Below are positions 2,558 through 34,300 of a stretch of 64,000 nt of DNA, piece after piece; within the stretch, counting starts at the first letter, position 1; the number at the start of each line of letters is the position of its first letter. The stretch is from Streptomyces sp. NBC_00464 (GTDB lineage Bacteria; Actinomycetota; Actinomycetes; Streptomycetales; Streptomycetaceae): NCBI RefSeq assembly GCF_036013915.1, contig NZ_CP107899.1, positions 1,178,001-1,242,000 on the forward strand, read 5' to 3'. A program made the position numbers and the translations under genes. Under the pieces are notes generated by a model. That model made no database searches and had not been told where the DNA came from. It saw nothing but the letters and a program-made list of their open reading frames with translations.

Positions 2558-3625
2558 TCAGCTCTTCAGACTCCGCGAAAGCACCTCGGCGACTTCAGGC
2601 GCAACCAGCAGTTCCACCACCCCGGTCGTCTTCCCCGGAAGGTGGTCGATGAAGACGTCTTCCACGTTCACCCCCGCCGCCCCGATGTCCGCGAAAAGAC
2701 GAGCCAGCTCGCCCGGCTGGTCGCCCACCGGCACCGTGACCGTGACATATCGAGCCTTCGGTGCACCGTGTTTGTTCGGCAGCCTCTCGTGGCCGGCGAC
2801 GCCTCGGTTCAGCGCGTCCAGGAGAGCTTCGGCACCCTCGTCGGCATCCCCCTCCGCGCCGAGCTCCAGCTGTCTCAACGCCGCTGTCACTCGTTCCAGG
2901 TCACGGGCCAGCTCGGTGAGGGTGTCGGCCACGGGGCCGGCGTTGGCGGACAGGACATCGACCCACAGCCCTGGATCACCCGCCGCGATCCGGGTGACGT
3001 CACGTACGCCCTGACCTGCCAGACTGATCTGCGACTCCGCGGCATCCTCCAGGCGTGCGGCCATGAGACTGGCAACCACGTGCGGGGCGTGGGAGACCAG
3101 GGCGACTGCCGCATCGTGCTCGTCCGGCCTCATCACGAGCAGATGGGCGCCACACATATCGATCAAGCTCTCGACGGCATGCAGAGCCTGTGCCGAAGTC
3201 GCGGCGTGGGGGGAGAGGGCCCAGACCCGCCCTTCGAACAGATTGGCTCGTGAGGCCAGTGGACCGGAACGTTCTCCACCGGCCATGGGATGGCCTCCCA
3301 CGAAGGACGTGAGATCACATCCCAGCTCCACGATGTCCGTCATGGGGCGCGCCTTGACGCTGGCCACGTCCGTATAGGCTCGGGCGAGCCCGCGCTTCTG
3401 TGCCCCCGCGAGGGTGGTGGCCAGTTCCGCCGGCGGTACCGCAAGAATGGCCAGGTCGACCGCTTCCGCCGGTTCCTCGGCACGTCCGGCTCCCATGGCC
3501 GCAGCGGTCCGGGCAGCCATGGGTTCCTGGTCTATGAGGTAGACGGCTACGCCCTTGGCGGAGAGTGCCAGAGCGATCGAGGTACCGATCAGCCCCGTCC
3601 CGACGACAGCGGCACTACGCAACAT
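2558..3625 (-). CDS. tyrA: Prephenate dehydrogenase with C-terminal ACT domain
   Basis: Oxidatively decarboxylates prephenate to 4-hydroxyphenylpyruvate with NAD+. The 355-residue protein has an N-terminal Rossmann fold with the dinucleotide loop VVGTGLIGTS at residues 6-15. It has the family active-site stretch GGHPMAGGERSG and a C-terminal ACT-like region of about 75 residues (from YVTVTVPVGDQPGELARL). The start at 3625 has a GAGGGAA ribosome binding site; a longer frame to 3760 has no homology. It follows hpgT on the same strand after 91 bases. Arylglycine clusters commonly carry a dedicated prephenate dehydrogenase to boost 4-hydroxyphenylpyruvate, the substrate of hydroxymandelate synthase, and that is the likely role here. 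The ACT domain suggests feedback control is possible. Confidence 0.92.
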   Translation of the reverse strand: MLRSAAVVGTGLIGTSIALALSAKGVAVYLIDQEPMAARTAAAMGAGRAEEPAEAVDLAILAVPPAELATTLAGAQKRGLARAYTDVASVKARPMTDIVELGCDLTSFVGGHPMAGGERSGPLASRANLFEGRVWALSPHAATSAQALHAVESLIDMCGAHLLVMRPDEHDAAVALVSHAPHVVASLMAARLEDAAESQISLAGQGVRDVTRIAAGDPGLWVDVLSANAGPVADTLTELARDLERVTAALRQLELGAEGDADEGAEALLDALNRGVAGHERLPNKHGAPKARYVTVTVPVGDQPGELARLFADIGAAGVNVEDVFIDHLPGKTTGVVELLVAPEVAEVLSRSLKS

Positions 3626-3716
3626 GGATTCCCTCAGGTTGATCGAATCGACAACGTCCCGGCCAAGTCGCGCTCGGCTCTGCGGCCGCTGGTGGGCAGA
3701 CGGTCCCCGGGTGGGG

Positions 3717-5030
3717 TCAGCCCTGCCGCTGGACGGAGAACAGAGCGGCGAGGCGTTCAAGCCCTTCGTCGATCTCCGCCCCGTCGACTTGGCTGTAAGA
3801 CAGGCGGAGTTGGCAAGCGACCTCGGGTTGCGAGCCGAAGTAGCTCATCGGGGTCCACAGCACCCCGTAGTCGCGCGCGGAGACCTCCAACAGCGCGTCA
3901 TCCGCCGGGAAAGGCACCGTCAACACGATGAAGAACCCGCCGTCCGGTACGTTCCAGGTCACTCCCGATCCGCCGTCGGACGGGAAATGCCGCTCCAGGC
4001 CCGCCAGCAGGCGATGCAGATTGGCACGGTACAAGGCGATCTCACGCTCATTGGCGCTGTACAGGCTCAGGCCGTGAGTCAGGAGCTTGCCCGCGATGAC
4101 AGCCTGGGCAACGGGCGGGGTGTTCACCGTGAGCATGCTCTTGATCTTCGAGAGTTCCTCGGCCAGCAGCCCCTCCCCTCCATCGGCGGTAAGGACTCGC
4201 TGGTCGGCCACCGCGAATCCGATCCGGGCGCCTGGCATACCGGTCTTCGCGAACGATCCCAGATAGACGACCCTGCCCCGGGTGTCGAGCGACTTCATCG
4301 TGGGCAGCCGCACGCCGTCCGCGGTGAAATAGCCGTACGGGTTGTCCTCAAGCAGCAGCAGGTCGAGCCGCTCCGCGAGATCGAGCAGCGCGTGCCGGGT
4401 CGCCAGATCCAGGCTGATGCCGGTGGGGTTGGCGAAGTCCGCTACCAGGTAGCAGGCTCGGGGCCGCAGCCCGCGCGCGCGTGCCTCGCCCACCACCTGC
4501 TCAAGGCTCTCCAGATCTATGCCGTTCGGCCCGCCGGCCACCTCAAGGACCGGCATGTCCACGAGGCGGGCGGCCCCGGTGAATCCCACGTAACTCGGTG
4601 AAACGGCGAGGACCACGTCCCGCTCGTCCGCGCGCAGCGCGCGCAGCACCAGGAACATCGCCTCCTGACAGCCAACGGTGACCACGACCGATTCGGGGTC
4701 CACGGTCATGCCCTCGTCCACTTCCAGGTGGCGGGCGATCAGCTCATGGATGATGCCGTTGGTCCGCCCGTACTGGAAGAGGGTCCGACGCACCCGCGCC
4801 TCGTCGTACCCCTTCTCCTCTCTCAGATACTGCTCGAAGCGCCGAAGGTAGTCATGGACGAGACCGGTGTCGAAAAATCCTTCGTAGGGCCGCCCCGGGG
4901 CGAAGGAGATCGCCTCGGGAAACCGCTGGGCGATCTCGTTGAGGAAGTTCATCGAGCCCAGCGACTTGTCCTCAAGACATGCGTGCAGCTCCGCTGTGCG
5001 CATCAGAGCTGCCGGATTCCGCTGTATCAC
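3717..5030 (-). CDS. hpgT: 4-Hydroxyphenylglycine aminotransferase (HpgT-like)
   Basis: PLP-dependent fold-type I aminotransferase expected to convert 4-hydroxyphenylglyoxylate to L-4-hydroxyphenylglycine, with tyrosine as amino donor. This would regenerate 4-hydroxyphenylpyruvate and close the cycle. The 437-residue length matches HpgT. Visible motifs are LVADFANPTGISLD, the cofactor Asp-Asn-Pro segment LLLLEDNPYGYF, and the Schiff-base lysine in LGSFAKTGMPGARIGF. The start is taken as GTG at 5030 because its GTGA overlaps the stop of the oxidase gene by four bases and a GAAGGAACGG site lies upstream; an internal ATG at 5003 is the alternative. The neighbours encode the other Hpg enzymes, which is why HpgT is preferred over a generic 2-aminoadipate-type aminotransferase. 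Confidence 0.87.
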   Translation of the reverse strand: MIQRNPAALMRTAELHACLEDKSLGSMNFLNEIAQRFPEAISFAPGRPYEGFFDTGLVHDYLRRFEQYLREEKGYDEARVRRTLFQYGRTNGIIHELIARHLEVDEGMTVDPESVVVTVGCQEAMFLVLRALRADERDVVLAVSPSYVGFTGAARLVDMPVLEVAGGPNGIDLESLEQVVGEARARGLRPRACYLVADFANPTGISLDLATRHALLDLAERLDLLLLEDNPYGYFTADGVRLPTMKSLDTRGRVVYLGSFAKTGMPGARIGFAVADQRVLTADGGEGLLAEELSKIKSMLTVNTPPVAQAVIAGKLLTHGLSLYSANEREIALYRANLHRLLAGLERHFPSDGGSGVTWNVPDGGFFIVLTVPFPADDALLEVSARDYGVLWTPMSYFGSQPEVACQLRLSYSQVDGAEIDEGLERLAALFSVQRQG

Positions 5031-6217
5031 CCTGGGACCGTTCCTTCGTGGCTGGTCTTGTACGTGTATGTGGTGTGGGCGTGGGCACTGCCTGTACGGT
5101 CCGCGCCTCTCGCGTCCCGCCCGACTCGCAAGGTGCTTGCGGACCCCGGGCCGGAGCACCCCGCGAGCCCGAGCGCGTCGCGCAGCTCGGCCGCGAGCAG
5201 GTCAAGGACTCTGCGCGCCCCTTCGCCCCCGCCCGCAGCCAGCCCCCACAGCAGCGGACGTCCGAGCAGAACGCCGCTCGCCCCAAGTGCGAGAGCCTTG
5301 AGCACATCGAGCCCGCTGCGGACACCGCTGTCGAGCAGCACCTCGCAACGTCCGTCCACCGCCGCGCACACCTCCGCCAACGCGTCGATGCTTGCTATGG
5401 CCCCGTCCATCTGCCGTCCGCCGTGGTTGGAGACGACGATGCCGTCCACCCCCGACTCGGCCGCCCGGACCGCGTCCGTCGGATCGAGCACGCCCTTGAC
5501 CACCAGCGGCAGCCGGGTGCGGCGCCGAAGCTCCTCCACATCCGCCCAGCTGAGGGACGGCGCGAAGGACGCGGCGGTGTGGCGGGCGACCGCGGACTCG
5601 CCCGCGGCCGCCTGATGCGCCGCCGATTCCGCGCCCGCCGGAAAATGCGCCGCCACGACGTCGTCCGGCAGTACGAAGCCATTGCGCAGGTCACGCGTGC
5701 GACGGGCCATCCATGGCACGTCGACCGTGAGCATCACGGCGCTGCACCCGGCGTCTTCGGCTCGGCGCACCAGGTCGAACGACCGTTCGCGGTCGCGCAG
5801 CCAGTAGAGCTGAAACCATGTCGTGGCTCCGACGGCGGCGATCTCCTCCACCGTGTAGCTGCTCAGTGTGCCGACGGTGAAGGGGATTTTGGCCTCGGCC
5901 GCCGCGCGCGCCGCGGCGAGCTCACCCTCCGGGTGTACCAGCCTCTGGTAGCCGATCGGCGCGGTTGCCACAGGCATCGCGCAGTGGCGACCCAGCAGGG
6001 TGGTCGCAGATGCGCAGTCCGATACGTCACGCAGGACTCTCGGCACGATCCGCAGCCGGTCGAACGCGGCCCGGTTGGCCGCGAGAGTAAGTTCCGCACC
6101 GCTGCCGCCCGCCACGAAGTCGCGTACGGCGGCGGGCAGCACCGCGTCCGCCGCCCGTTCGAAGTCGGCCAGGGCGAAGAAGTCGCTGGCCGTGAACGTG
6201 TCCGCGGCCGCCGTCAT
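5027..6217 (-). CDS. hmo: 4-Hydroxymandelate oxidase
   Basis: FMN-dependent alpha-hydroxyacid oxidase, 396 residues, expected to oxidise 4-hydroxymandelate to 4-hydroxybenzoylformate in arylglycine biosynthesis. Family signatures are visible in order: VATAPIGYQRLVHPEGE, TVGTLSSYTVEEIA, WFQLYWLRDR, LPLVVKGVLDPTDA, the active-site histidine motif VVSNHGGRQMDG, and the phosphate-binding GVRSGLDVLKALALGA. The ATG at 6217 overlaps the stop of hydroxymandelate synthase by four bases (ATGA), implying coupled translation. The stop in turn overlaps the GTG of hpgT. Lactate or glycolate oxidase would look similar; the assignment to hydroxymandelate rests on this operon context. Confidence 0.88.
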   Translation of the reverse strand: MTAAADTFTASDFFALADFERAADAVLPAAVRDFVAGGSGAELTLAANRAAFDRLRIVPRVLRDVSDCASATTLLGRHCAMPVATAPIGYQRLVHPEGELAAARAAAEAKIPFTVGTLSSYTVEEIAAVGATTWFQLYWLRDRERSFDLVRRAEDAGCSAVMLTVDVPWMARRTRDLRNGFVLPDDVVAAHFPAGAESAAHQAAAGESAVARHTAASFAPSLSWADVEELRRRTRLPLVVKGVLDPTDAVRAAESGVDGIVVSNHGGRQMDGAIASIDALAEVCAAVDGRCEVLLDSGVRSGLDVLKALALGASGVLLGRPLLWGLAAGGGEGARRVLDLLAAELRDALGLAGCSGPGSASTLRVGRDARGADRTGSAHAHTTYTYKTSHEGTVPG

Positions 6218-7362
6218 CGAACGGAGGCGTTCTGCTGAAGCCGTTCCAACTCCACTGCTTCGTATAGAGCCTTGATGTTGGAGGATCCGAACGTCTCGGC
6301 GCCCAGCCGCTCGATCACTTCGAAGAAGAGGGTGCGTCGGGGGTGCGTCGACCGGGTGAATATCTGGAACAGCTGCCCGCCGTGGTCCTCATCGACGAGC
6401 AGGTTCCACTCGCGCAACGACTCCAACCCATGCCGCATCAACTCCACGCGCTGAGCCAGGAGTTGGTAGTACGTGCCGGGAGTCTTCAAGAAGTCCACAC
6501 CGGCGCGGTTCAGAGCCCGGACCGAACCGACGGCGTCGTGGCTGGAGAACGCGATGTGCTGGACTCCCGCACCGCCGTGGTTCTTCAGGAATTCGTCGAT
6601 CTGCCCCGGATCGGCCTCCGGATCCGGCTGGATTATCGTGAAGGTGATGTCACCCTTGCAGCTCTGGACCACCTTCGACAGCATGGCCTGCGAGCCGACG
6701 ACGATCCGCTCCTCGAATATCTCCTTGAACCCGAGTGTCTCCTGGTAACACTTGACGACCTCGTCCAACCCCCCGACCCGTACGCACACGGCGAAGTGGT
6801 CGATCTCCTCAAGTCCGGCGGCCTCAGTGGCGGACGGACCTGCCTCGGAGCCGGACGGCACCGGCTCGAAGCCTGCCGGCAGACAGTCGGTGCCCTCACG
6901 CTCGATGAGGGTGTGCACGACATCTCCGAAGCCGGCGATGGTGGCCGTGGCGACCACACCCGGCCCAGGCAGCCGGGCAGGCTCGGCCATCGGACGCGCG
7001 CCCCGGCCCACCGCGTACGCGAAGGCGGCCGCGACGTCGGCGGTGCGCATGGCGATGCGGCCCACGCCGGAGCCGTGCAGCGCCGTGTAGAGCGAGGCCG
7101 GGTGTCCCTCGTCGATACCTTCGGTGAGTACCAGGACAATCCTCCCCTGGCACAGCGCGAGGCTGCGGAAGCCTGCCCCCGCTCCGCCGGCGGAGCCCAC
7201 GACCGTGCAGCCGAATCGCGTGGTCCACTCGGAGGCCTCGCGGTCAAGGTCCTCGACGTAGAGCTCCACGTGGTCGAGTAGGAGGTCTCCGACCGGGAGC
7301 TCGGCGGCGGGCTGCGCGTGTGCGGGGCGTTCGGAGTCTGCTGCGATGGTCATACGGCTCAA
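6214..7362 (-). CDS. hmaS: 4-Hydroxymandelate synthase
   Basis: Non-haem Fe(II) dioxygenase of the 4-hydroxyphenylpyruvate dioxygenase fold. It converts 4-hydroxyphenylpyruvate, O2 and loss of CO2 into 4-hydroxymandelate, the committed step to 4-hydroxyphenylglycine. Two VOC (glyoxalase-like) halves are visible over 382 residues. The metal ligands read as His189 (IDHFAVCV), His269 (GVQHIAFSS) and Glu348 (LFFEVIER). The neighbouring oxidase and aminotransferase favour HmaS over the closely related HPPD. A TTG at 7362 has AGGAAG at good spacing; an ATG at 7353 is the alternative but sits too far from that site. This is the first gene of the overlapping hmaS-hmo-hpgT run. Confidence 0.9.
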   Translation of the reverse strand: MSRMTIAADSERPAHAQPAAELPVGDLLLDHVELYVEDLDREASEWTTRFGCTVVGSAGGAGAGFRSLALCQGRIVLVLTEGIDEGHPASLYTALHGSGVGRIAMRTADVAAAFAYAVGRGARPMAEPARLPGPGVVATATIAGFGDVVHTLIEREGTDCLPAGFEPVPSGSEAGPSATEAAGLEEIDHFAVCVRVGGLDEVVKCYQETLGFKEIFEERIVVGSQAMLSKVVQSCKGDITFTIIQPDPEADPGQIDEFLKNHGGAGVQHIAFSSHDAVGSVRALNRAGVDFLKTPGTYYQLLAQRVELMRHGLESLREWNLLVDEDHGGQLFQIFTRSTHPRRTLFFEVIERLGAETFGSSNIKALYEAVELERLQQNASVR

Positions 7363-7480: not shown

Positions 7481-8407
7481 CTACGCGACCGGAGGCAGGG
7501 CGCCGTCCCAGACAACCGGGCAGAAGTCGGGGTCGGCGTAGTCCGGAGTCCCGTGTGGCGTCCTGCGCACCAGCTCGTCGTGGTTGTAGGCGGCGAGGCT
7601 GCCGTCCGAGAGAGGGAAGGCCCGGTAGGCGTTGGCGCCGTCCTGGAGGTGCAGCGAGATGGCGCGGCGCGGCTCCGCGGACCGGTTGGCCCCGCTGCCG
7701 TGGTAGGTCCGGCAGTGGTGGAAGCTCACATGCCCTTCCGGGATCTCCACCGGCACCTTGACGACCTTCGCGCCGTTCGCCTCCGCTGTCCGCTCAAGCA
7801 CCGACTCCGCGTCACTCCCGAGTTGTGCGAAGTGCCGGGCTGTCACGGCGTCACGGCTCAGCTCCTTCCAGCGGTGGCTGCCGTCGACCATGGTGATGGT
7901 GCCCATCCGCTCGTCGCAGGCGTGGAACGGGATGAAGGCGGTCAGCATCTGCTCCGAGGACGATGTCGCCCAGTAGTCCCGGTCGAAGTGCCAGGGCACG
8001 ACATTGCTGGGCTCCTCGGGCCGCGGCGGCTTGCGGATGAGAGTCGACTGGAACACCCGGATCTGATCGACCTGGGCCAGCCTCGCCGCCACCGCCCCCA
8101 GCAGCGGCTTGCGCAGCACCTCCGCGATCGCGTCGCTCTCGTAGTGGATGTAGTCGTTGTGCCGCTGGACGTCTCCCTTCTCGGGGGTCCAGTACGCCAG
8201 CCGCGCGGGGCGCCGGGGAAGCACACGGTCGCGCCGTCCCGCGTAGAACTCCTCGCCCGCCGAGCGCAGCAGAGCGGTCTCCTGGTCGGTGAACAGCTTC
8301 TTCGACAGGTACCAGCCGTGTTCGGCGTAGGACGCGACATCGCTGTCCGACGGCAGGAGTTCACGCTCCTCATCGGTCAGGGCAAAGATCTGGGTGGGTG
8401 CGGACAC
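7481..8407 (-). CDS. PhyH-type Fe(II)/2-oxoglutarate dioxygenase
   Basis: A 308-residue phytanoyl-CoA dioxygenase-family protein, likely hydroxylating a small molecule or carrier-bound residue with O2 and 2-oxoglutarate. The facial triad reads as His140 and Asp142 in PWHFDRDYW and a distal His236 in CRTYHGSGANRS. An arginine about 12 residues later (RRAISLHLQ) probably anchors 2-oxoglutarate. The start is GTG at 8407 with AGGAG six bases upstream. It lies between hmaS and the PLP decarboxylase on the same strand, so it is probably a tailoring enzyme of the peptide pathway. Which atom it hydroxylates cannot be read from sequence. Confidence 0.85.
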   Translation of the reverse strand: MSAPTQIFALTDEERELLPSDSDVASYAEHGWYLSKKLFTDQETALLRSAGEEFYAGRRDRVLPRRPARLAYWTPEKGDVQRHNDYIHYESDAIAEVLRKPLLGAVAARLAQVDQIRVFQSTLIRKPPRPEEPSNVVPWHFDRDYWATSSSEQMLTAFIPFHACDERMGTITMVDGSHRWKELSRDAVTARHFAQLGSDAESVLERTAEANGAKVVKVPVEIPEGHVSFHHCRTYHGSGANRSAEPRRAISLHLQDGANAYRAFPLSDGSLAAYNHDELVRRTPHGTPDYADPDFCPVVWDGALPPVA

Positions 8408-8635: not shown

Positions 8636-10087
8636 TCAACGGCACTTCTTCGCCGTACGGTTGAGGAGAGCCCACAGACCCTCGATGTCCTGCCCTGTGG
8701 TATGGATGTTGGCGAGCGAGACCCTGATGACATATCCGTCGCGGATCACCGAGTGCGATACGAAGGCCTCGCCGGAGTCGTTGAGCTCCTTGACGATGCG
8801 GGCGTTCAGCACGTCCACCGCCTGGGCGTCCGAAGCCGCCCCGCCCTGTGGCGCGTACCGCAGACAGACCAGCGGGTAGCGCGACGGGACGGGGCACTGC
8901 CAGTCCGCATCGGCGGCGGCCAACTGTCTGAGATCGTCGGCCAGTCGCATCGCGTGATCCAGCCGGGACCCCAGCCCCGAGCGGCCGAACGAACGCATGA
9001 CCCACCAGAGTTTCAGGGCGCGGAAGCCCCTGCCCAGCTGCGGCGACAGGTCCATGAAGTCGAACGTGCCGCCCGTGTGCACCGATGTCAGGTATTCCGG
9101 TACGAGCCGGTATGTGTTGGCCAGCGTGCCACGGCGCTTGCAGTACAGCGCGGTCGAGTCCAACGGGACGAACAGCGTCTTCTGGGGGTTCACGACCAGC
9201 GAGTCACCGACCGAGACGTTCTCCGCCGCACCGCTCATCCGGGATGTGAAGGCGAACAGGCCGCCATAGGCCGCGTCGACATGCAGCCACACCCCGAACC
9301 GTCCGCAGATCTCACTGATCGGCTGCAGCGGATCCGCCGCCGCCACCGAGGTGGTGCCGACCGTGGCGACAACCGCGACCGGCACGCAGCCGGCTGCGAC
9401 GTCCCGGGCGATGGCCTCCTCCAGCAGGTCCGGGCGCATCCGGTACTGGTCGTCGGACGGGATCTTCACCACGTTGCGCAGCCCGATGCCGAGCGTGATG
9501 GCGGCCTTCTCCACTGAGCTGTGGGCCTGGTCGGAGGTGTAGATCCGGGCCACCTTCGCATGCGGGCCGCCCATACCCTCCTCGCGCACGTCGTAGGTGA
9601 GCGCCGCGTCCCGGGCCGCGCCGAGGGCGTAGAGCGTGGCCAGCGAGGCACCCCCGACCAGCAGTCCGTCCGACTCGCCCGGGTAGCCCGCCAGTTCGGC
9701 GAGCCACCCCAGCACCACGTGCTCAAGGGCCGAGGCCGACGGACTCGTCTTCCACAGCATCGAGTTGACGTTGAGCGCAGCGGTCATCGTCTCGGCGAGC
9801 ATCCCGGGGAAGCTCGCACAGGTGGAGAAGTAGCCGTGGAAGGCGGGGTGGTTCCAGTGGACGAGATCAGGGACGACCTTCTCCCACGTATCCGCGAGGA
9901 CGCGCGAGAACTCCTCGCCCTGCTCGGGCATAACCCCGTCCAGGCGGCTCATCAGCTCCGCCGCGTCGTAGGGGCGCGCCACCGGCACGTCCCTGACGTT
10001 CTCGAAGTGCTGACGGATGGTCGCGAGAAGCTCACGGCCATGGTGTTCGAAGTCCGCCGGCGCCCAGTCACCCGTTCCCTCAGACAT
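8636..10087 (-). CDS. PLP-dependent aromatic amino acid decarboxylase
   Basis: Group II pyridoxal-phosphate decarboxylase of 483 residues, related to aromatic L-amino acid (tyrosine, tryptophan) decarboxylases. Landmarks are HWNHPAFHGYF near the N-terminus, a stacking histidine in TSDQAHSSVEKA (His189), the cofactor aspartate in WLHVDAAYGG (Asp271), and the Schiff-base lysine in VNPQKTLFVPLD (Lys303). The start at 10087 has an AGGG-like ribosome binding site. Its first codons overlap the last eight bases of the upstream 120-residue gene, so the two are probably co-translated. In context it could make tyramine, the amine of reduced tyrosine, or 4-hydroxybenzylamine from Hpg. Substrate is not readable from sequence. 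Confidence 0.9.
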   Translation of the reverse strand: MSEGTGDWAPADFEHHGRELLATIRQHFENVRDVPVARPYDAAELMSRLDGVMPEQGEEFSRVLADTWEKVVPDLVHWNHPAFHGYFSTCASFPGMLAETMTAALNVNSMLWKTSPSASALEHVVLGWLAELAGYPGESDGLLVGGASLATLYALGAARDAALTYDVREEGMGGPHAKVARIYTSDQAHSSVEKAAITLGIGLRNVVKIPSDDQYRMRPDLLEEAIARDVAAGCVPVAVVATVGTTSVAAADPLQPISEICGRFGVWLHVDAAYGGLFAFTSRMSGAAENVSVGDSLVVNPQKTLFVPLDSTALYCKRRGTLANTYRLVPEYLTSVHTGGTFDFMDLSPQLGRGFRALKLWWVMRSFGRSGLGSRLDHAMRLADDLRQLAAADADWQCPVPSRYPLVCLRYAPQGGAASDAQAVDVLNARIVKELNDSGEAFVSHSVIRDGYVIRVSLANIHTTGQDIEGLWALLNRTAKKCR

Positions 10088-10442
10088 GCGCGCTTGCCCT
10101 ATGGGCGTGCGGGTCGGTCGCCTCGACGTCGACCGGAAGTTCCGTGAAGTAGAGGATGCCGCGCGGACCTTCGCAGTACTGCTCGTAGAACTCGCCGAGC
10201 AGCTTCTCCTCCTCCTTGATGAACACCTCGTGCTCGGCGCGGCTGCGCCAGGTGTACATCATCCAGATCTCCGCCTCGCGCTCCTGAAGCTGGTAGAAGC
10301 GGCCGTGCTCGCACCAGCCCGGGTCGTCGTGGGCGCCCGGGCCTACGATGTCGTCCATCACCTGCATCAATTCCAGCGTGCGCCCGGTGAACTCCTCCTT
10401 CAGCTTCCAGGTCTCGATGACCGTGACCTTCTCTGCGCTCAT
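10080..10442 (-). CDS. Small alpha/beta-barrel-like protein, function unknown
   Basis: A 120-residue protein with no signal peptide or membrane segment. The alternation of short beta-like stretches (KVTVIETWKL, AEIWMMYTWRS, GILYFTEL) with charged helices resembles dimeric ferredoxin-like barrels of the antibiotic-monooxygenase or Dabb type, but I see no definite signature. It starts at 10442 behind an AGGAG site, and its stop overlaps the decarboxylase start by eight bases. A partner or auxiliary role for the decarboxylase is a reasonable inference. Small barrels of this kind act as cyclases, isomerases or monooxygenases in other pathways. Family assignment would need a structure prediction. 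Confidence 0.72.
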   Translation of the reverse strand: MSAEKVTVIETWKLKEEFTGRTLELMQVMDDIVGPGAHDDPGWCEHGRFYQLQEREAEIWMMYTWRSRAEHEVFIKEEEKLLGEFYEQYCEGPRGILYFTELPVDVEATDPHAHRASAHV

Positions 10443-15690: not shown

Positions 15691-15745
15691 CCCTGTCCTG
15701 GACGGGAGCGTCACGACGCTCAAACAAAGCGGCCTGCCCTTCGCG

Positions 15746-26082: not shown

Positions 26083-26195
26083 AGGGATCTCTGAACTCTC
26101 GGCAGAGAACCGCGGCGGAGCCGGCTGACAGGCACGAGCCGCGACAGCACCCCAGCCCATCCCGTTTGATATTCCTCAACGCACAGGAGAACGCC

Positions 26196-26405
26196 ATGCC
26201 GAACCCGTTCGAAAACCCGGACGGCCAGTACCACGCACTGGTCAACGACGAGAAGCAGTACTCACTGTGGCCTTCGTTCGTGCCAGTCCCGGAAGGCTGG
26301 TCCATCGCGCTCGGCCCCGCGTCCCGTGACGAGTGCCTTGCGTTCGTGAGCGAGACATGGACGGACATGAGGCCGGCCAGCCTTGCGCGCGCGATGGCCG
26401 ACTGA
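26196..26405 (+). CDS. mbtH: MbtH-like protein
   Basis: A 69-residue MbtH-family protein that binds NRPS adenylation domains and helps them fold and work. The family core is visible: NPFENPDGQYHALVNDEKQ, SLWPSFVPVPEGW and the tail ETWTDMRP. The start at 26196 has AGGAG six bases upstream; an in-frame codon at 26166 adds ten residues without homology. It follows the terminal NRPS gene after 113 bases and precedes the exporter gene. One or more of the four A domains here probably depend on it. Confidence 0.95.
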   Translation: MPNPFENPDGQYHALVNDEKQYSLWPSFVPVPEGWSIALGPASRDECLAFVSETWTDMRPASLARAMAD

Positions 26406-26524: not shown

Positions 26525-27757
26525 ATGAAGCGCTTCGTCAAGGATTCCTTTTCCGGCCTTCCCGGAGATTTTTGGTGGCTGTGGACAGCCACGCTCATCA
26601 ATAGCCTCGGCGGCTTTGTTGGAATCTTCCTGGCGCTCTACCTCACGAACGGCCTGGGCTACTCCCCGAGTTTCACGGGTTTTGTGGTATCTCTGTACGG
26701 CGGCGGGGCCGTGATCTCCTCGATTCTCGGCGGATTTCTGGCCGATCGCATCGGGCGTACGCGCACCATCCTGGCCGCTCAGCTGACGACCGGCATCTCC
26801 ACTCTCCTGCTCGGGTTCGCCGACAGCGCCACAGAGATCTCGACCATGGCGTTCGTGGTGGGGGTATCGGGCGCGGCATCGCGCCCAGCAATCGGTGCGA
26901 CGATCGCAGATCTGGTGGAGGGACCCGAACGGCAGAAGGCGTTTTCGCTGAACTACTGGGCGGGGAATCTGGGGTTCGGCGCATCGGCAGCGATCGTGGG
27001 TATGGTCGCCGAGCACGGGTACCGCCCCCTCTTCATGGCCGAGGCCGCAGCCACGCTTGTCTGCGCAATCCTGGTGTACGTACAGGTACCGGAAACGAGC
27101 GGGAAGCGGAGCCGTGAAAAGACACGGGATTCACGCTTCCTTGCGGGGTATGCCTCCGTGTGCCGGGACTGGTCATTCCTGGGGATCGTGGCAATGACGT
27201 TTCTCATGGCCCTGCTGTTCCAGCAGGCTGCGACCTCATTGCCGATCTCGATGACTCTGGATGGTTTCTCGAGTGCGGACTACGGGACGGTGATCAGCCT
27301 GAACGGGTTCATGATCGTCCTCCTTCAGGTCCCGCTGTCCCGCGTGGTGAAGTCCGTAAGCCCGAGGCGGGCTCTTGCGGTATCGGCGCTCCTGTGCGGA
27401 TTCGGCCTCACCGTCATAACGGGTGCCAGTTCACTGCCGTTCTATTTCTCGGCCGTAGCCATCTGGACTCTGGGGGAGATAATTTTCGCACCCGTGATCA
27501 TGAACGTTGTTTCCCAGATGTCGCCGTCTGCGGCACGAGGGCGATATCAGGGCATGTATCAACTGGCCTTCTCTGGCGCCGCCCTCGTGGCTCCCATCTC
27601 CAGCGGGAATGTGATCGACCAGTTCGGGACCAGAACCATCTGGATCCTGTGCGGCGTCATAGGTACGGTTGCAGCGATCGGTTACCTGACACTGGGGCGG
27701 GCGGCGGAAAGACGGTCAAACAAGTCCGTCGACCTTGCGATAGCTACGCCGAGCTGA
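26525..27757 (+). CDS. MFS transporter, probable product exporter
   Basis: A 410-residue major facilitator protein with about twelve hydrophobic segments, for example WLWTATLINSLGGFVGIFLAL at the N-terminus. The family loop motif between helices 2 and 3 reads GGFLADRIGRTRT (residues 68-80). It belongs to the drug-efflux type of MFS and lies between mbtH and the stand-alone A domain, so export of the peptide, and self-protection, is the likely role. The start ATG at 26525 lacks a strong ribosome binding site; a small hairpin with CGACCT/AGGTCG arms lies upstream at 26420-26436. Confidence 0.9.
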   Translation: MKRFVKDSFSGLPGDFWWLWTATLINSLGGFVGIFLALYLTNGLGYSPSFTGFVVSLYGGGAVISSILGGFLADRIGRTRTILAAQLTTGISTLLLGFADSATEISTMAFVVGVSGAASRPAIGATIADLVEGPERQKAFSLNYWAGNLGFGASAAIVGMVAEHGYRPLFMAEAAATLVCAILVYVQVPETSGKRSREKTRDSRFLAGYASVCRDWSFLGIVAMTFLMALLFQQAATSLPISMTLDGFSSADYGTVISLNGFMIVLLQVPLSRVVKSVSPRRALAVSALLCGFGLTVITGASSLPFYFSAVAIWTLGEIIFAPVIMNVVSQMSPSAARGRYQGMYQLAFSGAALVAPISSGNVIDQFGTRTIWILCGVIGTVAAIGYLTLGRAAERRSNKSVDLAIATPS

Positions 27758-27926: not shown

Positions 27927-29426
27927 GTGACGACACAGTGCCTGCACAGGACCTTCGAAAGGCAGGCGGCTGCCGCTCCGGAGGCATTGGCGGTTGTTTC
28001 TCAGGGTGAAGAACTGACCTACGGCGAACTGGACGCGCGCGCGGACCGGGTGGCGCAGCTGCTCGTGGACGCGGGAGTGCGCCGGGGGTCCCTGGTGGGG
28101 ATCCATCTGGAGCGCGGGGCGCAGATGGTGGTGGCGATCCTCGCCACGCTGAAGGCCGGCGCGGGCTACGCGATGCTGGACCCGGAGTTCCCCGTACACC
28201 GTCTGCGTGACATGGTCGAAGACGTGGCGCCTGCCGTCGTGATCGCCGGCAGCGAGGCGGACGTGAACAGGCTGGGCACTTCGGCGGGGTTCGTCGGCCT
28301 GGCCGGCGCCACGGACCGGCCCCTGCCTCGCGGAGCTGTCGCTGCCACTTCCGAGGACACCGCCTGCGTCATCTTCACCTCCGGATCCACGGGCCGCCCC
28401 AAGGGCGTCACCGCTCCGCACCGGGCGTTGGCCGGGACCGTCCTGGGGCAGTCCTTTACGCGGTTCGGTCCCGACACGGTCTGGCTCCAGTGCGCGCCCA
28501 TCTCCTGGGATGCCTTCGTTCTGGAGCTCTGGGGCCCCCTGTTGACCGGCGGCACCTGTGTGTTCCATCCGGGGCGGCCCAACCCCATCCAGATGGAGCG
28601 TCTCGTGGCCGCGCACGGCATCACCACGATGAATCTCCCGACCGTCCTCTTCCACGTGATCATGGAGGAGTATCCGGAGGCGCTGGCAGGGCTGACGGAT
28701 CTGCTCGTCGGCGGTGAGGCGCTTTCGCCCGGGCATGCGGCCCAGTTGCTCCGGGAGTTCCCGGAGCTGCGTTTCGTCAACGGCTACGGACCGGTCGAAT
28801 GCATGGTCTTCGTGACCACACACCGTGTTACCGCAGAGAGTGCGGCACGGGCATCGGTCCCGATCGGTCACAGCATGGCCGGCAAGAACGTGTACGTACT
28901 CGATGAGTGGCTGCGGCCGGTGGCCGACGGGGACGCCGGTGAGCTGTACGCCTCGGGCGAGGGACTGGCCAACGGCTACCTCGGGAGGCCGGGGACGACC
29001 GCCGAACGGTTCGTCGCGGACCCCTTCGGGAGGCCGGGCGGACGCATGTACCGCACGGGCGACTTCGTACGGTTCCACGCCGACGAGCCCCTGGAATTCA
29101 TCGGGCGGGTGGACGGGCAGGTGAAGATCCGGGGCGTTCGTATCGAATTCGCCGAAGTCGAATCCGTCCTGGAGACGCACGCCGCAGTCAAGAGGGCTGT
29201 CGTCGCGGCAACTGGCGACACGCCCGAAGATCGAAAGCTTGTCGCCTTCCTCGCGGTCCGCGCGGAACAGGGAGATGCCGGTTCCACGGAAGCCGAGCTC
29301 CGCTCCTACGCCGCGGAGAAAATGCCCGAATTCATGGTGCCTCACCGGTTCGTGGTTCTGGACTCCCTTCCCGTGACGCACAACGGAAAGATCGACCGTA
29401 CCGCTCTGCTCGCATCCAACAAATAG
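27927..29426 (+). CDS. Stand-alone NRPS adenylation domain
   Basis: A 499-residue amino acid-activating enzyme with a complete A domain and no carrier. It has A3 [13 protein letters not shown] near residue 147, the A5-like NGYGPVE, A7 YRTGDF, A8 GRVDGQVKIRG and A10 THNGKID near the C-terminus. The by-eye pocket code is D-A-L-N-L-G-G-V-F-K, not one I recognise. The start is GTG at 27927 with GGAGG five bases upstream. The first NRPS protein (C-T) lacks an A domain, so this enzyme most simply charges that carrier in trans. The preceding 169-base gap is AT-richer than average and may hold its own promoter. It is followed after 20 bases by the first carbamoyltransferase gene. Confidence 0.92.
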   Translation: MTTQCLHRTFERQAAAAPEALAVVSQGEELTYGELDARADRVAQLLVDAGVRRGSLVGIHLERGAQMVVAILATLKAGAGYAMLDPEFPVHRLRDMVEDVAPAVVIAGSEADVNRLGTSAGFVGLAGATDRPLPRGAVAATSEDTACVIFTSGSTGRPKGVTAPHRALAGTVLGQSFTRFGPDTVWLQCAPISWDAFVLELWGPLLTGGTCVFHPGRPNPIQMERLVAAHGITTMNLPTVLFHVIMEEYPEALAGLTDLLVGGEALSPGHAAQLLREFPELRFVNGYGPVECMVFVTTHRVTAESAARASVPIGHSMAGKNVYVLDEWLRPVADGDAGELYASGEGLANGYLGRPGTTAERFVADPFGRPGGRMYRTGDFVRFHADEPLEFIGRVDGQVKIRGVRIEFAEVESVLETHAAVKRAVVAATGDTPEDRKLVAFLAVRAEQGDAGSTEAELRSYAAEKMPEFMVPHRFVVLDSLPVTHNGKIDRTALLASNK

Positions 29427-29446: not shown

Positions 29447-31021
29447 ATGCTGATTCTGGGATTCAAAGAGGGCCACGACGGCGCGGTTGCCGCTATCGAG
29501 GACGGAAAGCTCCTCTTCTCGCTCGAGGCGGAGAAGGACTCGTTCCCCCGCTATGACCGCCTGACCGCCGATGTCCTGCTCCGGGCGGCGGAGAAGCTGG
29601 GGCGGATACCTGACGCACTCGCGGTCGGTGGCTGGGTGAAGGGCACACACAACACGGAACCCCCCTCTCGGACTGGCTACTACGGCGTGGGGCCCGGATC
29701 GATTTCGGACGAGGCTGGGAAGTTCTTCGGCCAGGACGTGAAGGTATTCTCCTCCACGCACGAGCGGTCACACATAATGACCGCACTCGGCCTTTCTTCA
29801 TTCCCCCAGGGCCAGCCGTTCTACTGCTTGGTGTGGGAGGGGAACATCGGGTCGTTCTACCTCATCGACGAAAACGGCGAGGTCACCCATCTCCGCCACG
29901 TCATGGCCGACCCGGGCAACAAGTACGCCTACCTGTTCGCGCTGGCCGACCCCAGCTTCCCGGCGAACAAGGGGCTGCTCAGGCTCCAGGACGCAGGCAA
30001 GCAAATGGCGTTGACGGGCTTCGCGAAGCACACCAGCCTGAACAAGGACGAAAGGGAGATCATCGACTTCCTCCTGGAGCAGGAACAGATCATCCTCAAT
30101 CTAGGCAAGGACGATCTGACATGGAGCCCTTTCCATAACATAGGACTGGATTCACAGGAGTACAGGAATCTGGCCGCCAAGTTCTCGGACGCGATATTCG
30201 ACCGGTTCTTCCAGTACGCGAAGGCTGAACTCACGGAGGGGTACCCTCTGCTGATCTCCGGTGGTTGCGCACTCAACTGCGAGTGGAACCGCCGCTGGCG
30301 GGAGTGTGGGCTCTTCCCCGAGGTGTTCGTGCCGCCGTGTCCGAATGACAGCGGCTCCGCGCTGGGCACGGCCATCGACGCGCAACTGCACTACACCGGG
30401 TCTGCCACGGTGTCCTGGGATGTCTATGCCGGAGAGGAGTTCGTCGAGGATGTCCCCTTCGCGTCCGACGACTACGACGTCAGGCCGCTGGACTTCGGTG
30501 AAGTAGCCGCCTCCCTGGCGGCCGGCAACGTGATCGGCTGGGCCCAGGGCCGGTGGGAGATGGGCCCGCGAGCGCTCGGCAACCGCTCGATCCTGGCCGC
30601 GCCGTTCACGACGGAGTCGATGACCCGACTCAACGGGATCAAGAAGCGTGAAAGCTACAGGCCGATCGCACCGATCACTCTGGAGTCCGACGCCGCGAAC
30701 TGGTTCAGCGGTTCGATTCCGGATCCCCACATGCTCTACTTCAGCAAGGTGACGTCGGATTCTCTCCAGGCCGTCACTCATGTCGACGGCACGGCGCGCG
30801 CGCAGACGGTGACACCGGAACAGAATCCCCGGATGGCTCGCCTGCTGACGGAATTCCGCGACATCACCGGATACAGCGTCCTGTGCAACACCTCCCTCAA
30901 CTTCAACGGGCGGGGCTTCATCAACCGGACGAGCGACCTGATCCAGTACGGCGAAGAGCACGGGCTCGACGGTTACGTCGTAGGCAACACGTTCGCCGTC
31001 CGGCGCGGCCCCCGGGCCTGA
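29447..31021 (+). CDS. Carbamoyltransferase, NodU/CmcH family (first copy)
   Basis: Transfers a carbamoyl group from carbamoyl phosphate, via carbamoyl-AMP, to a hydroxyl or amine of a small molecule. The 524-residue protein has the Kae1-like N-terminal half with His105 and His109 in STHERSH, and PNDSGSALGTA. The YrdC-like C-terminal half has GRWEMGPRALGNRSIL and NTSLNFNGRGF. Compared with the second copy, the WDG position thought to bind metal or ATP reads Trp-Glu-Gly (LVWEGN), a mild oddity. The start at 29447 has AAAGG upstream. It sits in the right arm with a paralogue 404 bases downstream, implying two carbamoylation steps or a complex of two subunits. Confidence 0.9.
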   Translation: MLILGFKEGHDGAVAAIEDGKLLFSLEAEKDSFPRYDRLTADVLLRAAEKLGRIPDALAVGGWVKGTHNTEPPSRTGYYGVGPGSISDEAGKFFGQDVKVFSSTHERSHIMTALGLSSFPQGQPFYCLVWEGNIGSFYLIDENGEVTHLRHVMADPGNKYAYLFALADPSFPANKGLLRLQDAGKQMALTGFAKHTSLNKDEREIIDFLLEQEQIILNLGKDDLTWSPFHNIGLDSQEYRNLAAKFSDAIFDRFFQYAKAELTEGYPLLISGGCALNCEWNRRWRECGLFPEVFVPPCPNDSGSALGTAIDAQLHYTGSATVSWDVYAGEEFVEDVPFASDDYDVRPLDFGEVAASLAAGNVIGWAQGRWEMGPRALGNRSILAAPFTTESMTRLNGIKKRESYRPIAPITLESDAANWFSGSIPDPHMLYFSKVTSDSLQAVTHVDGTARAQTVTPEQNPRMARLLTEFRDITGYSVLCNTSLNFNGRGFINRTSDLIQYGEEHGLDGYVVGNTFAVRRGPRA

Positions 31022-31425: not shown

Positions 31426-33135
31426 ATGATCACTGCAGGGCTCAAGCTGACACACAGCGGCGGACTCGCGCTCCTTGAGGACGACAAGCTCCTGTTCAAC
31501 ATCGAGGTGCAGAAGCTCGCCAACAACCCTCGCTACAGCCCGGTCGCCGACCTCAGCCTGATCCCTGAGCTGCTTGCCGGGCAGGGCTTCAAGGTCTCCG
31601 ATGTCGACTACTGGGCGCTCGACGGATGGGACGGCAGGGAGGCAGGCCGGATCTCCGTGCTCGACAACGGCCGTCCCATCGACCTGACCGTCGCGCCCTA
31701 CCGTGAGAATGACACCGTGACCAGCCTGGTCCGTCCGGGGTCCACGGGCGAACTCCCCATCGGTGGGAAGTCGGTGGCGTACGACAGCTTCGTCCACGTG
31801 TCGAGTCACTTCGCCGCCGCCTACTGCTCCAGCCCGTTCGCCGCTCGCGGTGAGGACTCCTTCGTCCTGGTCTGGGACGGTGGCACCTTCCCCCGGCTGT
31901 ACTTCGTCGACGCCGAACACGGCACCGTCGAGAACGGCGGGGAGGTCTTCCCCCTGATCGGCCACTCCTATGCCATGGCTGCCCAGTACTTCGGGCCATG
32001 GGCGCGCAGGTCCGGCGACCGGTCCAAGGTGGTGGACGACCTGTCCGTAGCCGGAAAGCTGATGGCGTACATCGCGCTGGGAGAGCCCAAGGACGCGATC
32101 CAGGAAGCCCTTCGCGACGCGTTCCACAAGAGTTTCGAAGCCCCCACCCAGGCCGTCGCGCAGTACCGCCAGGCGGTCACCGGCTGTGGCAGCAACGGCG
32201 AACCCTCACACCGTTACGTCCACGGGTACCTCAGTGACGCCGCTGAGCAGATCGGCACGCTCGGCGTCTCCGACGAGGATGTCCTCGCCAGCATGCACCA
32301 GTTCATGGAGGACCTTCTGGTCGAGCGGATCGTCGAGAAGGCCCGGCGATGGAAGGGGGACGGCCCCTGGAACCTCGCTTTCGCCGGTGGCTGCGCGCTG
32401 AACATCAAGTGGAACAGCGCGCTGCGTGCCCACCCACTGTTCAGGGATGTCTGGGTACCGCCCTTCCCCGACGACTCGGGGTCCGCCATCGGCACCGCCT
32501 GCGCCGCCTACGCGCACCTCAAGGGGGTGTCCGCTGTCCAGTGGAACGCCCGCACCGGGCCGAGCCTGGTTGCCACCCCTGATGTCCCCGAGGGCTGGAC
32601 CTCTCGCGACTGTACGGTCGACGAGGTAGCCAAGATCCTGCACGAGACCGGCAAGCCGCTCGTCTTCCTGCACGGGAACGCGGAACTCGGCCCCCGGGCG
32701 CTCGGCGCACGCAGCATCATCAGCGTGGCCACCGACCCCGCGGCCAAGGACCTGCTGAACGAAATCAAGGAGCGGGAGTACTACCGCCCGGTGGCACCGA
32801 TCTGCCTCGTCGAGCACGCGGAGGAGATCTTCGACCCCGGGACGCCGGACCCGTACATGCTCTTCGACCACGACGTCCGCCCGGACTGGGTGGAGCGGGT
32901 ACCGGCCGTCATACACCTCGACGGCACCGCCCGCCTTCAGACCGTCAGCGTGGACGAGGACCCCGTACTCACCGATCTGCTGCGCTCCTACCACGCGCTC
33001 AGCGGAGTCCCGGTGCTCTGCAACACCAGCGCGAACCTCAACGGCAGGAGCTTCTTCCCGGACGCCGCTTCGGCCATGAAGTGGGGCCGGACCGACCACG
33101 TGTGGGCTGACGGGACTCTCTACAGCAAGAGCTGA
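31426..33135 (+). CDS. Carbamoyltransferase, NodU/CmcH family (second copy)
   Basis: A 569-residue paralogue of the preceding carbamoyltransferase. It has His124 and His128 (HVSSH), the full LVWDGG motif, PDDSGSAIGTA, a C-terminal GNAELGPRALGARSI, and NTSANLNGRSF. The start ATG at 31426 has AAGGAG six bases upstream, which rejects the longer in-frame option from 31186. The overall identity to the first copy looks modest, so this is an old duplication or independent recruitment rather than a recent copy. The acceptor is unknown; the ring hydroxyl of a reduced tyrosine or a beta-hydroxyl made by the dioxygenase are candidates. Confidence 0.92.
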   Translation: MITAGLKLTHSGGLALLEDDKLLFNIEVQKLANNPRYSPVADLSLIPELLAGQGFKVSDVDYWALDGWDGREAGRISVLDNGRPIDLTVAPYRENDTVTSLVRPGSTGELPIGGKSVAYDSFVHVSSHFAAAYCSSPFAARGEDSFVLVWDGGTFPRLYFVDAEHGTVENGGEVFPLIGHSYAMAAQYFGPWARRSGDRSKVVDDLSVAGKLMAYIALGEPKDAIQEALRDAFHKSFEAPTQAVAQYRQAVTGCGSNGEPSHRYVHGYLSDAAEQIGTLGVSDEDVLASMHQFMEDLLVERIVEKARRWKGDGPWNLAFAGGCALNIKWNSALRAHPLFRDVWVPPFPDDSGSAIGTACAAYAHLKGVSAVQWNARTGPSLVATPDVPEGWTSRDCTVDEVAKILHETGKPLVFLHGNAELGPRALGARSIISVATDPAAKDLLNEIKEREYYRPVAPICLVEHAEEIFDPGTPDPYMLFDHDVRPDWVERVPAVIHLDGTARLQTVSVDEDPVLTDLLRSYHALSGVPVLCNTSANLNGRSFFPDAASAMKWGRTDHVWADGTLYSKS

Positions 33136-33216: not shown

Positions 33217-33918
33217 TTGACCAGTCAGACGAACAACCAGATCTACTTCCCGGACGCCGATGTCGCGCTGAACGAAGATGGCACTCGATTCGCGTCCTAT
33301 CGCCGCGATGACACACAAGTGACCATCATTCATATCCCGCCGCACGGCTCCTTGGCGGCCCCCGCCGGCACGGAGTCCCGGGTAGGGATGGTCGTTCAGG
33401 GTCGGCTCTCCGTGACCGTCGGAGGTGTGACGAGGTCGATGGAGGCCGAGCGTGACGTCTACGTCGCCCCTCCCGGAGTGGACGTCTCGATTGCGAATAA
33501 TTCCTCTGAAGAAGTCGTCGCACTCGAAATAAAACGCGCTCACGAGGGTGATTCCACACCCACCCCGAGTGAGTACTTCCTTGGCCCGTACGAGTCCCGC
33601 AAGTTCGTCGGGATGGACGTCACGTTCTTCGTGAACAACTGGATCGAGCTCATGCTCGCAGATATCCCCAGCGGCGGCGAGATGCCCTACCACAAGCACT
33701 CTCATGAGCAGGTCGGGATATGTCTGGACGGGCGCTACGAAATGACGGTCGAGAAGACGAGCAGCGAGCTGACGTTCGGCGGCACCTACTTCTGTGTGAG
33801 TCAGGAGGGTCACGGTGCCGTCAACCCCAACTCCGGTGTGGCGCGTTCCCTGAACATCTTCATTCCGCCCCGGTATCACCGGGTCTCCAAGCTGAAGAAC
33901 GAGAAGGAAGCCCAGTGA
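33217..33918 (+). CDS. BacB-like bicupin isomerase
   Basis: A 233-residue double-cupin protein closely resembling BacB (about 236 residues) of bacilysin synthesis, which isomerises dihydro-4-hydroxyphenylpyruvate. Shared segments include VGMVVQGRLSVTVG, MDVTFFVNNWIELMLADIP, EMPYHKHSHEQVGIC and the tail NIFIPPRYHR. The second cupin keeps a metal site (His159, His161 in YHKHSHEQ). In the first cupin the HxH of BacB is replaced (PPHGSLAAPAGTE), so one metal site seems lost. The start is TTG at 33217 with GGAGG ten bases upstream; a nearby ATG is out of frame. Together with the BacA-like and BacG-like genes it points to a dihydro- or tetrahydrotyrosine precursor. Confidence 0.86.
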   Translation: MTSQTNNQIYFPDADVALNEDGTRFASYRRDDTQVTIIHIPPHGSLAAPAGTESRVGMVVQGRLSVTVGGVTRSMEAERDVYVAPPGVDVSIANNSSEEVVALEIKRAHEGDSTPTPSEYFLGPYESRKFVGMDVTFFVNNWIELMLADIPSGGEMPYHKHSHEQVGICLDGRYEMTVEKTSSELTFGGTYFCVSQEGHGAVNPNSGVARSLNIFIPPRYHRVSKLKNEKEAQ

Positions 33919-34006
33919 CACCAGCAGCGTGCGAACCGGACGGAAACCGCGAAGCCGGGCGTGCAGCAGCGGTCCACGTTCTCAAGTTGTGTCGAGAGGA
34001 TGCACC

Positions 34007-34300
34007 ATGATTCGCCATATCGTACTTTTCAAATTCAAGCCGGGCGTCGACTGGACTGATCCCAGGGCTTTGGCGGCGGAGCGCACTGCGGCTCAGGTGG
34101 GCAGTGAAGTGCCTGAGGTAAAAGAATGGCGAGTCGGCCGCAATGTGTCCCCTCGGGAGGTCGCTTACGACTTTCTTGTTGACGGGCTCCTCGAGGACAT
34201 GGACAAGGTCGAAAGCTACCTTGTCCACCCCTTTCACCAGGATGCGATTCGGCAGTGGCGGGAGATCAGTGACTGGGTCATCGCCGACGTCGAGGTATAG
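34007..34300 (+). CDS. Dabb-domain (stress-responsive A/B barrel) protein
   Basis: A 97-residue protein opening with MIRHIVLFKFKPGVD, the hallmark of Dabb proteins, and ending with the second strand WVIADVEV. These form dimeric ferredoxin-like barrels, and relatives act as cyclases in plant and bacterial pathways. A GAGAGGA site lies six bases before ATG 34007. It is the last gene of the cluster before a strong terminator, so it is probably co-transcribed with the cupin. It may catalyse a cyclisation or isomerisation of the precursor, but nothing in the sequence proves a reaction. Confidence 0.85.
   Translation: MIRHIVLFKFKPGVDWTDPRALAAERTAAQVGSEVPEVKEWRVGRNVSPREVAYDFLVDGLLEDMDKVESYLVHPFHQDAIRQWREISDWVIADVEV

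Follow-up and report, generated by a model that had tools for sequence, protein, structure and literature searches.

A Streptomyces gene cluster that may pair a 4-hydroxyphenylglycine cassette with a reduced-ring branch from prephenate

Can a single biosynthetic gene cluster draw two different amino acids, one aromatic and one de-aromatised, from prephenate? The question is raised by a 64,000-nucleotide stretch of Streptomyces sp. NBC_00464, hereafter the window, which corresponds to positions 1178001-1242000 of contig C1 (NZ_CP107899.1) in a genome of 8.96 Mb in three contigs. A preliminary description of its sequence had listed a complete gene set for 4-hydroxyphenylglycine (Hpg), a BacA-like prephenate decarboxylase, a BacB-like bicupin and a BacG-like short-chain dehydrogenase/reductase (SDR), and had proposed that the two resulting products of prephenate both feed one small nonribosomal peptide synthetase (NRPS). 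In our analysis, two parallel prephenate branches in one biosynthetic cluster come out as the likeliest reading, one to which we give somewhat more belief than doubt. It is supported by an extra copy of prephenate dehydrogenase (PDH), by the gene order and clade of the Hpg cassette, by a BacB-Dabb pair, by a BCAT-type aminotransferase and by the profile homology of one protein to BacA. The proposal of two products thus stands well for the Hpg branch and is carried for the reduced branch by BacB-Dabb and BCAT, but the first enzyme of the latter falls outside the BacA group.

The genes for 4-hydroxymandelate synthase (HmaS), 4-hydroxymandelate oxidase (Hmo), the aminotransferase HpgT and PDH are complete and adjacent at 2558-7353, in one minus-strand run. 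The same order, with NRPS genes nearby, was found in two of the three other clusters opened (L132 and L134), and the HpgT of the window is 75% identical to its counterpart in both; in the third (L135), HpgT lies on the opposite strand and no match to PDH was found. The PDH of the cassette has a second copy in the genome at C1:6329632, to which it is 54% identical. The structure that HmaS matches best, PDB 2r5v, is one that we take to be the HmaS of A. orientalis. A search of the genus found HmaS at E<=1e-70 in 63 of 295 genomes. Among the 29 best-scoring loci, the window's own excluded, HpgT or PDH lay within ~1.5 kb of HmaS in 24, and a BacA-family match within the same distance in none.

Phylogeny agrees with this arrangement. 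An HmaS tree of 50 rows, which omits L024 and L049-L052 because the HmaS match is partial there, places the window HmaS in a 12-row clade (support 100/98) together with L090 and L091, both of which are HmaS-Hmo-HpgT-type cassettes. The seven HmaS rows linked to BacA-family genes form a separate, long-branched clade (100/100). Given its position in the Hpg-cassette clade, we rejected the assignment of the window HmaS to the BacA-linked type. Protein families, PDB matches, gene order and phylogeny all bear out the complete Hpg set of the preliminary description, and gene order and phylogeny strongly support the view that this is an ordinary Hpg cassette. Its predicted chemistry is that given in an excerpt of PMC5897657: PDH would yield 4-hydroxyphenylpyruvate, HmaS 4-hydroxymandelate, Hmo 4-hydroxyphenylglyoxylate, and HpgT finally Hpg.

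For the reduced branch, the bicupin provides a clear anchor. It matches the PDB structure of BacB, 3h7j, along almost all of its length (E 3.7e-63), and it is 60% identical to the BacB of a bac-type operon from Streptomyces sp. Mg1, in which the gene order is BacA-BacB-SDR-SDR-MFS-aminotransferase-Dabb. The Dabb protein of the window is in turn 77% identical to the Dabb that closes this operon. With these identities, the right edge formed by bicupin and Dabb looks like a piece of a bac-type operon, and the bicupin is, to judge from homology, a genuine BacB-type protein, as had been claimed. Both cupins of 3h7j presumably hold metal ligands; in the window protein the C-terminal metal motif is kept and the N-terminal PHQH region is replaced, unlike in 3h7j. 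Simple patterns found the N-terminal motif in 0/33 and the C-terminal motif in 32/33 of the listed relatives.

Of 246 genomes searched in the genus, the window's own was the only one with the bicupin at E<=1e-40. A plasmid search with it returned nine records, of which seven were from Streptomyces at ~60% identity, six of these with a BacA-annotated neighbour. A plasmid search with Mg1 BacA returned 80 records (58 from Phaeobacter). Nine plasmid records were opened. L087 and L088 represent one and the same operon, no annotation is given for L124 and L126, and L127 is annotated with a dehydratase and lists no Dabb. Dabb lay within ~5.5 kb of BacA in all six annotated BacA loci opened (L087, L088, L121, L122, L123 and L125), and BCAT stood beside BacA in three of them (L121, L123 and L125). 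As it is present near BacA in all six, Dabb possibly belongs to the reduced-tyrosine pathway, as a member so far overlooked.

The putative first enzyme of the branch, for which we use the term BacA-family protein, is more distant from its namesake. Library scans found no Pfam and no NCBIfam match for its open reading frame (ORF), a PDB search with its profile gave no match, and blastp against the BacA of Streptomyces Mg1 produced no significant match, only 15 residues at E 0.3. When the profile of 21 relatives was set against one built from seven BacA-group proteins, hhalign nevertheless aligned 166 columns (20% identity, P 1.1e-16, 98.8%). Of the earlier label "BacA-like", the full-length homology therefore holds, but the blastp result and a tree position outside the BacA clade led us to reject the protein as BacA proper. 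On the phylogeny that had been named beforehand as refuting, the outcome is thus divided, with the BacA-like protein outside the BacA group and the bicupin of BacB type. By these comparisons the protein would be a BacA relative, not BacA, in a mainly actinobacterial subfamily that has no Pfam or NCBIfam model, and its candidate role as a prephenate decarboxylase is drawn from its neighbours, the bicupin, Dabb and BCAT.

Concerning its motifs, we take TRF to be the dehydratase motif. No counterpart of TRF, as aligned to the genome's own PheA, was found in the 21 BacA-family or the 7 BacA-group rows, the letters TRF occurring at other positions in one row of each set. All rows carry M-x-W-x-x-F/Y near the C-terminus (21/21 BacA-family, 7/7 BacA-group and 3/3 Leuconostoc). 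The placement of M-x-W exactly at the dehydratase TRF position was withdrawn, since the alignment with PheA does not show it. The Leuconostoc BacA-like proteins (L043, L044, L045 at 10001-10540) lie near a weak PDH-like match, and as they likewise have no TRF we do not call them dehydratases. The contig of L042 is a broken mosaic.

A protein search with the BacA-family sequence returned 46 proteins, the window's own included, and the relatives at 70-76% identity bear names that include Micromonospora, Nonomuraea and Nocardia in the protein records. Strong matches (E below 1e-39) occurred in 9 of 392 genomes of the genus, own genome included, and matches at E<=0.001 in 16. The class-wide search found the gene in 2/394 genomes and a search among relatives in 6/199, each including the window's own; of the other relatives four are at 45-47% identity and one is weak. 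In a second genus, probably Nocardia, the count was 18 of 150 genomes. Across 36 BacA-family loci, a GalE-like family recurs in 24, a 3-hydroxyisobutyrate-dehydrogenase-like family in 20 and a weak single-cupin family in 8.

The SDR of the window is ~31% identical to each of the two SDRs of the Mg1 operon, and its top PDB matches are generic SDRs. It is an SDR, as described, but the BacG label is unproven and the protein is best regarded as generic on these matches. Taken together, the second branch would start with the BacA-family protein, for which a non-aromatising decarboxylation of prephenate is proposed. The double bonds would then be shifted by the BacB-type bicupin, possibly together with Dabb, the SDR would reduce the ring to give di- or tetrahydro-hydroxyphenylpyruvate, and transamination by BCAT would lead to di- or tetrahydrotyrosine. 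The Hpg genes, the BacA-family gene, SDR and BCAT lie in a single minus-strand run and the bicupin closes the NRPS run, so that the reduced-ring pathway is split over both runs.

What would the NRPS do with these products? The NRPS with one methyltransferase domain, the two carbamoyltransferases, the PhyH oxygenase and the pyridoxal-phosphate (PLP) decarboxylase were all found as described. Pfam gives the domain strings C-T, A1-T-C-A2-MT-T and C-A3-T-TE plus a lone A4, and the line A1-C-A2(N-methyl)-C-A3-TE would join three residues. The pocket codes, read by eye, are DAATIGGILK (A1), DMPEMAAVCK (A2), DTLQLGVIWK (A3) and DALNLGGVFK (A4); the automated reading missed or misread position 278 in A1, A2, A4 and in two comparison loci, L133 and L135, where it is H by eye. 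Measured against the codes that we assume for glycine, Phe/Tyr, valine and proline, A3 appears glycine-like, A1 Phe/Tyr-like and A4 valine-like. With its Phe/Tyr-like code, A1 is a plausible site for the reduced tyrosine. A1 and A2 share a direct repeat (15850-17288 and 19027-20468; 1.44 kb at 93.6% identity), which marks them as a recent duplication with differing pockets.

The first carbamoyltransferase, CT1, is 74% identical to one from S. tendae whose gene comes after those for A-T, P450 and thioesterase (TE) proteins. Where a carrier-bound amino acid is to be beta-hydroxylated, the arrangement A-T / P450 / TE is typical. Between the S. tendae A domain and A4 the identity is 40%, and two of the pocket positions that were read are different. 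Following the layout around this CT1 relative, A4, the extra C-T with its spare T, PhyH and CT1 would probably build and attach an O-carbamoyl hydroxy-amino acid.

The pairing of HmaS with a BacA homologue also occurs elsewhere. Among 37 BacA-family loci from a scan of GTDB species genomes, limited by its two peptide patterns, HmaS and Hmo are followed by a BacA-family gene in eight (L018, L019, L020, L022, L023, L024, L026 and L027), and we therefore rejected the idea that the pairing is unique to the window. The eight loci share an operon (at ~3.6-13.7 kb of L018 and much the same in the other seven) with an amino-acid dehydrogenase, MFS, HmaS, Hmo, BacA-family, malate-synthase-G-like and MDR reductase genes; the families were assigned by Pfam in L018 and by homology in the other loci, and the HmaS and Hmo matches of L024 are partial. 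A PucR-type regulator adjoins it in 6/8. HmaS and Hmo were present as well in four of nine strong non-own BacA-family loci of the genus search (seven weak ones excluded), possibly the same species again. The earlier statement that no known cluster has the same content accordingly holds for the whole content, which was not found in the searched data, but sets of HmaS, Hmo and a BacA-family gene exist elsewhere. This operon points to an action of HmaS and Hmo on a reduced ring, as ketomycin would need if its structure and biosynthesis, and their link to the operon, are as we assume. It is possibly a ketomycin-type pathway, in which the malate-synthase-like gene is without explanation. For ketomycin, the excerpt of PMC10421486 gives its activity only.

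A number of observations weigh against two prephenate branches in one cluster. A bicupin match (E<=1e-8) is absent from the 37 BacA-family loci, some of which are shortened by contig ends, and the full combination was not seen conserved: among the matches listed, Streptomyces NPDC102467 is the only organism named for all three of HmaS, bicupin and BacA-family protein, the last of these entries being a fusion remnant. Neither the next-closest HmaS bearers, NPDC051162, NPDC051563 and NPDC021093 (81-82%), nor the close BacA-family relatives are named in the bicupin list, again among the matches listed. As the HmaS list is the best 120 of 1706 and many rows are without an organism name, such co-occurrence by name indicates rarity, not absence. 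BacA proper and the BacA-family subfamily are divided by a long 100/100 branch in a 57-row tree whose long rows the program flags as unsure, and the BacA-family profile comes almost as near to three functionally uncharacterised Leuconostoc proteins (P 9.8e-14). The genome also encodes a BacA proper, at C3:180138-180695, which could in principle feed the bicupin. The roles of the two aminotransferases could be swapped. Finally, none of the four window A domains, read by eye, has the canonical Hpg code, which we take to be DxxHLGLLCK. An Hpg-type code is present in two of the three comparison clusters, in L135 and in L133 on the contig of L132, and the single A domain read in L134 is not Hpg-type. 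The idea that the NRPS takes up both products is thus still a proposal, and the absence of this code leaves the destination of Hpg between A2, A4 and an amine formed through the aromatic-amino-acid-decarboxylase-like (AADC-like) enzyme.

NPDC102467 bears on the reading in another way. Its HmaS is 89% identical to that of the window, its bicupin 81% and on another contig, and a 226-residue protein, on a contig that equals the HmaS contig in length, joins BacA-family residues 1-38 to BCAT residues 177-365. This looks like a single deletion that runs from within the BacA-family gene, most of which is gone, across the SDR and into BCAT, of which half is lost; an error of the assembly is also possible. 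The loss of these three with HmaS and the bicupin kept is as expected if they serve one branch. It would also suit a reading that we consider unlikely, in which two pathways merely adjoin: the reduced-ring genes would serve a separate anticapsin- or dihydrophenylalanine-like molecule, and the NRPS would take only Hpg or ordinary amino acids. Bac-type operons are indeed found standing alone, and the bicupin and Dabb sit at the far right edge, beside a transposase remnant. Yet the BacA-family gene, SDR and BCAT stand in the run that holds the Hpg genes, the bicupin is at the end of the NRPS run, and no BacD-like ATP-grasp ligase was found among the scanned cluster proteins.

Could HmaS, Hmo and HpgT instead act in series on the reduced keto acid made by the BacA-family protein, bicupin and SDR, and so give a hydroxycyclohexenylglycine-like residue in place of or beside Hpg? 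The direct adjacency of the BacA-family gene to HmaS and Hmo in the eight named and four strong genus loci argues for it, and so does an NRPS without a canonical Hpg code, in which the valine-like A4 (by the valine code we assume) would suit a beta-branched residue. We nonetheless think it quite improbable, as the window HmaS sits outside the BacA-linked HmaS clade, the window BacA-family protein lies outside the HmaS-linked BacA clade, and a dedicated PDH would be pointless if the route were purely reduced. Likewise quite doubtful is its wider form, in which the subfamily represents a novel type of prephenate decarboxylase whose non-aromatic keto acid can be processed by HmaS/Hmo/HpgT, the separate operon leading to reduced, ketomycin-like arylglyoxylates and the window to a reduced-ring arylglycine beside or instead of Hpg. 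Very unlikely, in our estimate, is an action of the BacA-family protein on another prephenate-like acid, with the bicupin a relic or fed by the plasmid BacA on C3. The long branch from BacA proper, the GalE-like and 3-hydroxyisobutyrate-dehydrogenase-like neighbours, the lack of a bicupin match in the 37 named loci and the presence of the C3 gene fit it; the full-length profile homology to BacA, the absent TRF counterpart and the co-location of bicupin, Dabb and BCAT do not. The C3 contig itself matches an NBC_01022 (Streptomyces sp.) plasmid at ~98% identity over 30.6 kb, and the annotation of the plasmid region that corresponds to the C3 BacA lists genes of the NRPS, PKS, Dabb, BCAT, PaaK-like and ornithine-cyclodeaminase-like kinds.

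The features of the locus are collected in the table. GC content, in 2-kb steps, is 61-70% as far as 38 kb and 69-75% beyond, and a mutator-transposase remnant lies at 34630-35109, beside the bicupin/Dabb end. The 20 kb to the left of the window have 65-70% GC with no GC step, and the left edge of the cluster is therefore not fixed. At the left edge of the window, the region 418-2542 holds PanD (418-933) and a FabV-like reductase (~1007-2200). A second panD copy is present at C1:16084; for this reason, and for want of a GC step in the left flank, PanD and FabV were kept out of the cluster parts.

Table. Predicted features of the cluster, in window coordinates
Feature	Coordinates	Strand	Basis
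Prephenate dehydrogenase (PDH)	2558..3625, ORF open to 3760	-	NCBIfam PDH above cut-off
HpgT-type aminotransferase	3717..5021, ORF open to 5159	-	Pfam Aminotran_1_2
Hmo, 4-hydroxymandelate oxidase	5100..6217, ORF 5027-6217	-	Top PDB matches 4-hydroxymandelate oxidase, E 3.9e-132
HmaS, 4-hydroxymandelate synthase	6214..7353, ORF open to 7362	-	Top PDB match 2r5v
PhyH-type Fe/2-oxoglutarate oxygenase	7481..8407	-	Pfam PhyH 3.6e-20; HxD motifs at residues 83, 140
Aromatic-amino-acid-decarboxylase-like PLP enzyme	8636..10087	-	Pfam Pyridoxal_deC; top PDB 7xin DOPA decarboxylase
Small protein, no family found	10080..10442	-	Library scans: none; lowest E 0.17
BCAT-type aminotransferase, candidate transaminase of reduced keto acid	10584..11681, ORF to 11735	-	NCBIfam BCAT above cut-off
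SDR, candidate reductase of reduced-ring branch	11818..12552	-	Family matches
BacA-family protein, 200 aa, candidate prephenate decarboxylase	12724..13326	-	Profile homology; no Pfam/NCBIfam model
NRPS C-T	14020..15690	+	Pfam
NRPS A1-T-C-A2-MT-T	15584..22090	+	Pfam; pocket motifs
NRPS C-A3-T-TE	22087..26082	+	Pfam; pocket motifs
MbtH-like protein	26166..26405	+	Pfam
MFS exporter	26525..27757	+	Pfam
Lone A domain A4	27927..29426	+	Pfam
NodU-type carbamoyltransferase CT1	29447..31021	+	Pfam; HxxxH motif
NodU-type carbamoyltransferase CT2	31426..33135, ORF from 31186	+	Pfam, NCBIfam; HxxxH motif
BacB-type bicupin isomerase	33217..33918	+	PDB 3h7j match; C-terminal metal motif
Dabb-domain protein	34007..34300	+	Pfam E 3.5e-17

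If the reading of two parallel branches is true, one peptide would receive two amino acids, one aromatic and one de-aromatised, from a single shikimate-pathway intermediate, a pairing in one cluster that we have not met in the open-access literature searched. The BacA-family subfamily, which has no family model and whose members come from Streptomyces, Nocardia and elsewhere, may represent a second line of enzymes that act on prephenate without aromatising it. In eight named loci it is tied to HmaS and Hmo, and this offers a testable proposal for the origin of reduced arylglyoxylates.

How does the cluster compare with known systems? With the glycopeptide-type Hpg cassette it shares PDH, HmaS, Hmo and HpgT, with HmaS nearest to PDB 2r5v, and it differs in that no canonical Hpg A domain was found. 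The bac-type operon, known from plasmids of Mg1 and S. goshikiensis, shares the bicupin and Dabb; in the window BacA is replaced by a distant subfamily, the aminotransferase is of BCAT type and the genes lie in two runs around the NRPS. The BacD-type ATP-grasp ligase of the bacilysin cluster was not found among the scanned window cluster proteins. The HmaS-Hmo-BacA-family operon resembles the window in bringing these three genes together, and differs in a conserved set without NRPS module or bicupin, in HmaS and BacA clades of its own, and in its amino-acid dehydrogenase, malate-synthase-like and MDR genes. The S. tendae plasmid cluster (L141: A-T, P450, TE, carbamoyltransferase) shares the CT1 relative and an A pocket of the form DALN(I/L)GG(T/V)F, PhyH in the window probably standing for P450; no BacA, HmaS or bicupin is among the 28 annotated features shown for it, the plasmid gene tables being incomplete. 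In the open-access PMC literature we found no described cluster with the content of the window. By the proline codes that we assume, no proline-like code, such as a Choi-type A domain would be expected to have, was seen among the window A domains, and in this the cluster appears to differ from the aeruginosin/suomilide type. In excerpts of the reports on those clusters, AerD/E/F accompany an NRPS (PMC10143770, PMC8609519, PMC10157211), and for suomilide the cluster combines homologues of AerD/E/F with oxygenases and a carbamoyltransferase (PMC8609519). The clusters are cyanobacterial and the excerpts name no Hpg cassette; the likeness lies in BacA-, BacB- and SDR-type genes that feed a small NRPS, with a carbamoyltransferase present. 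On the strength of these excerpts, the suomilide cluster is the nearest described one that we have met.

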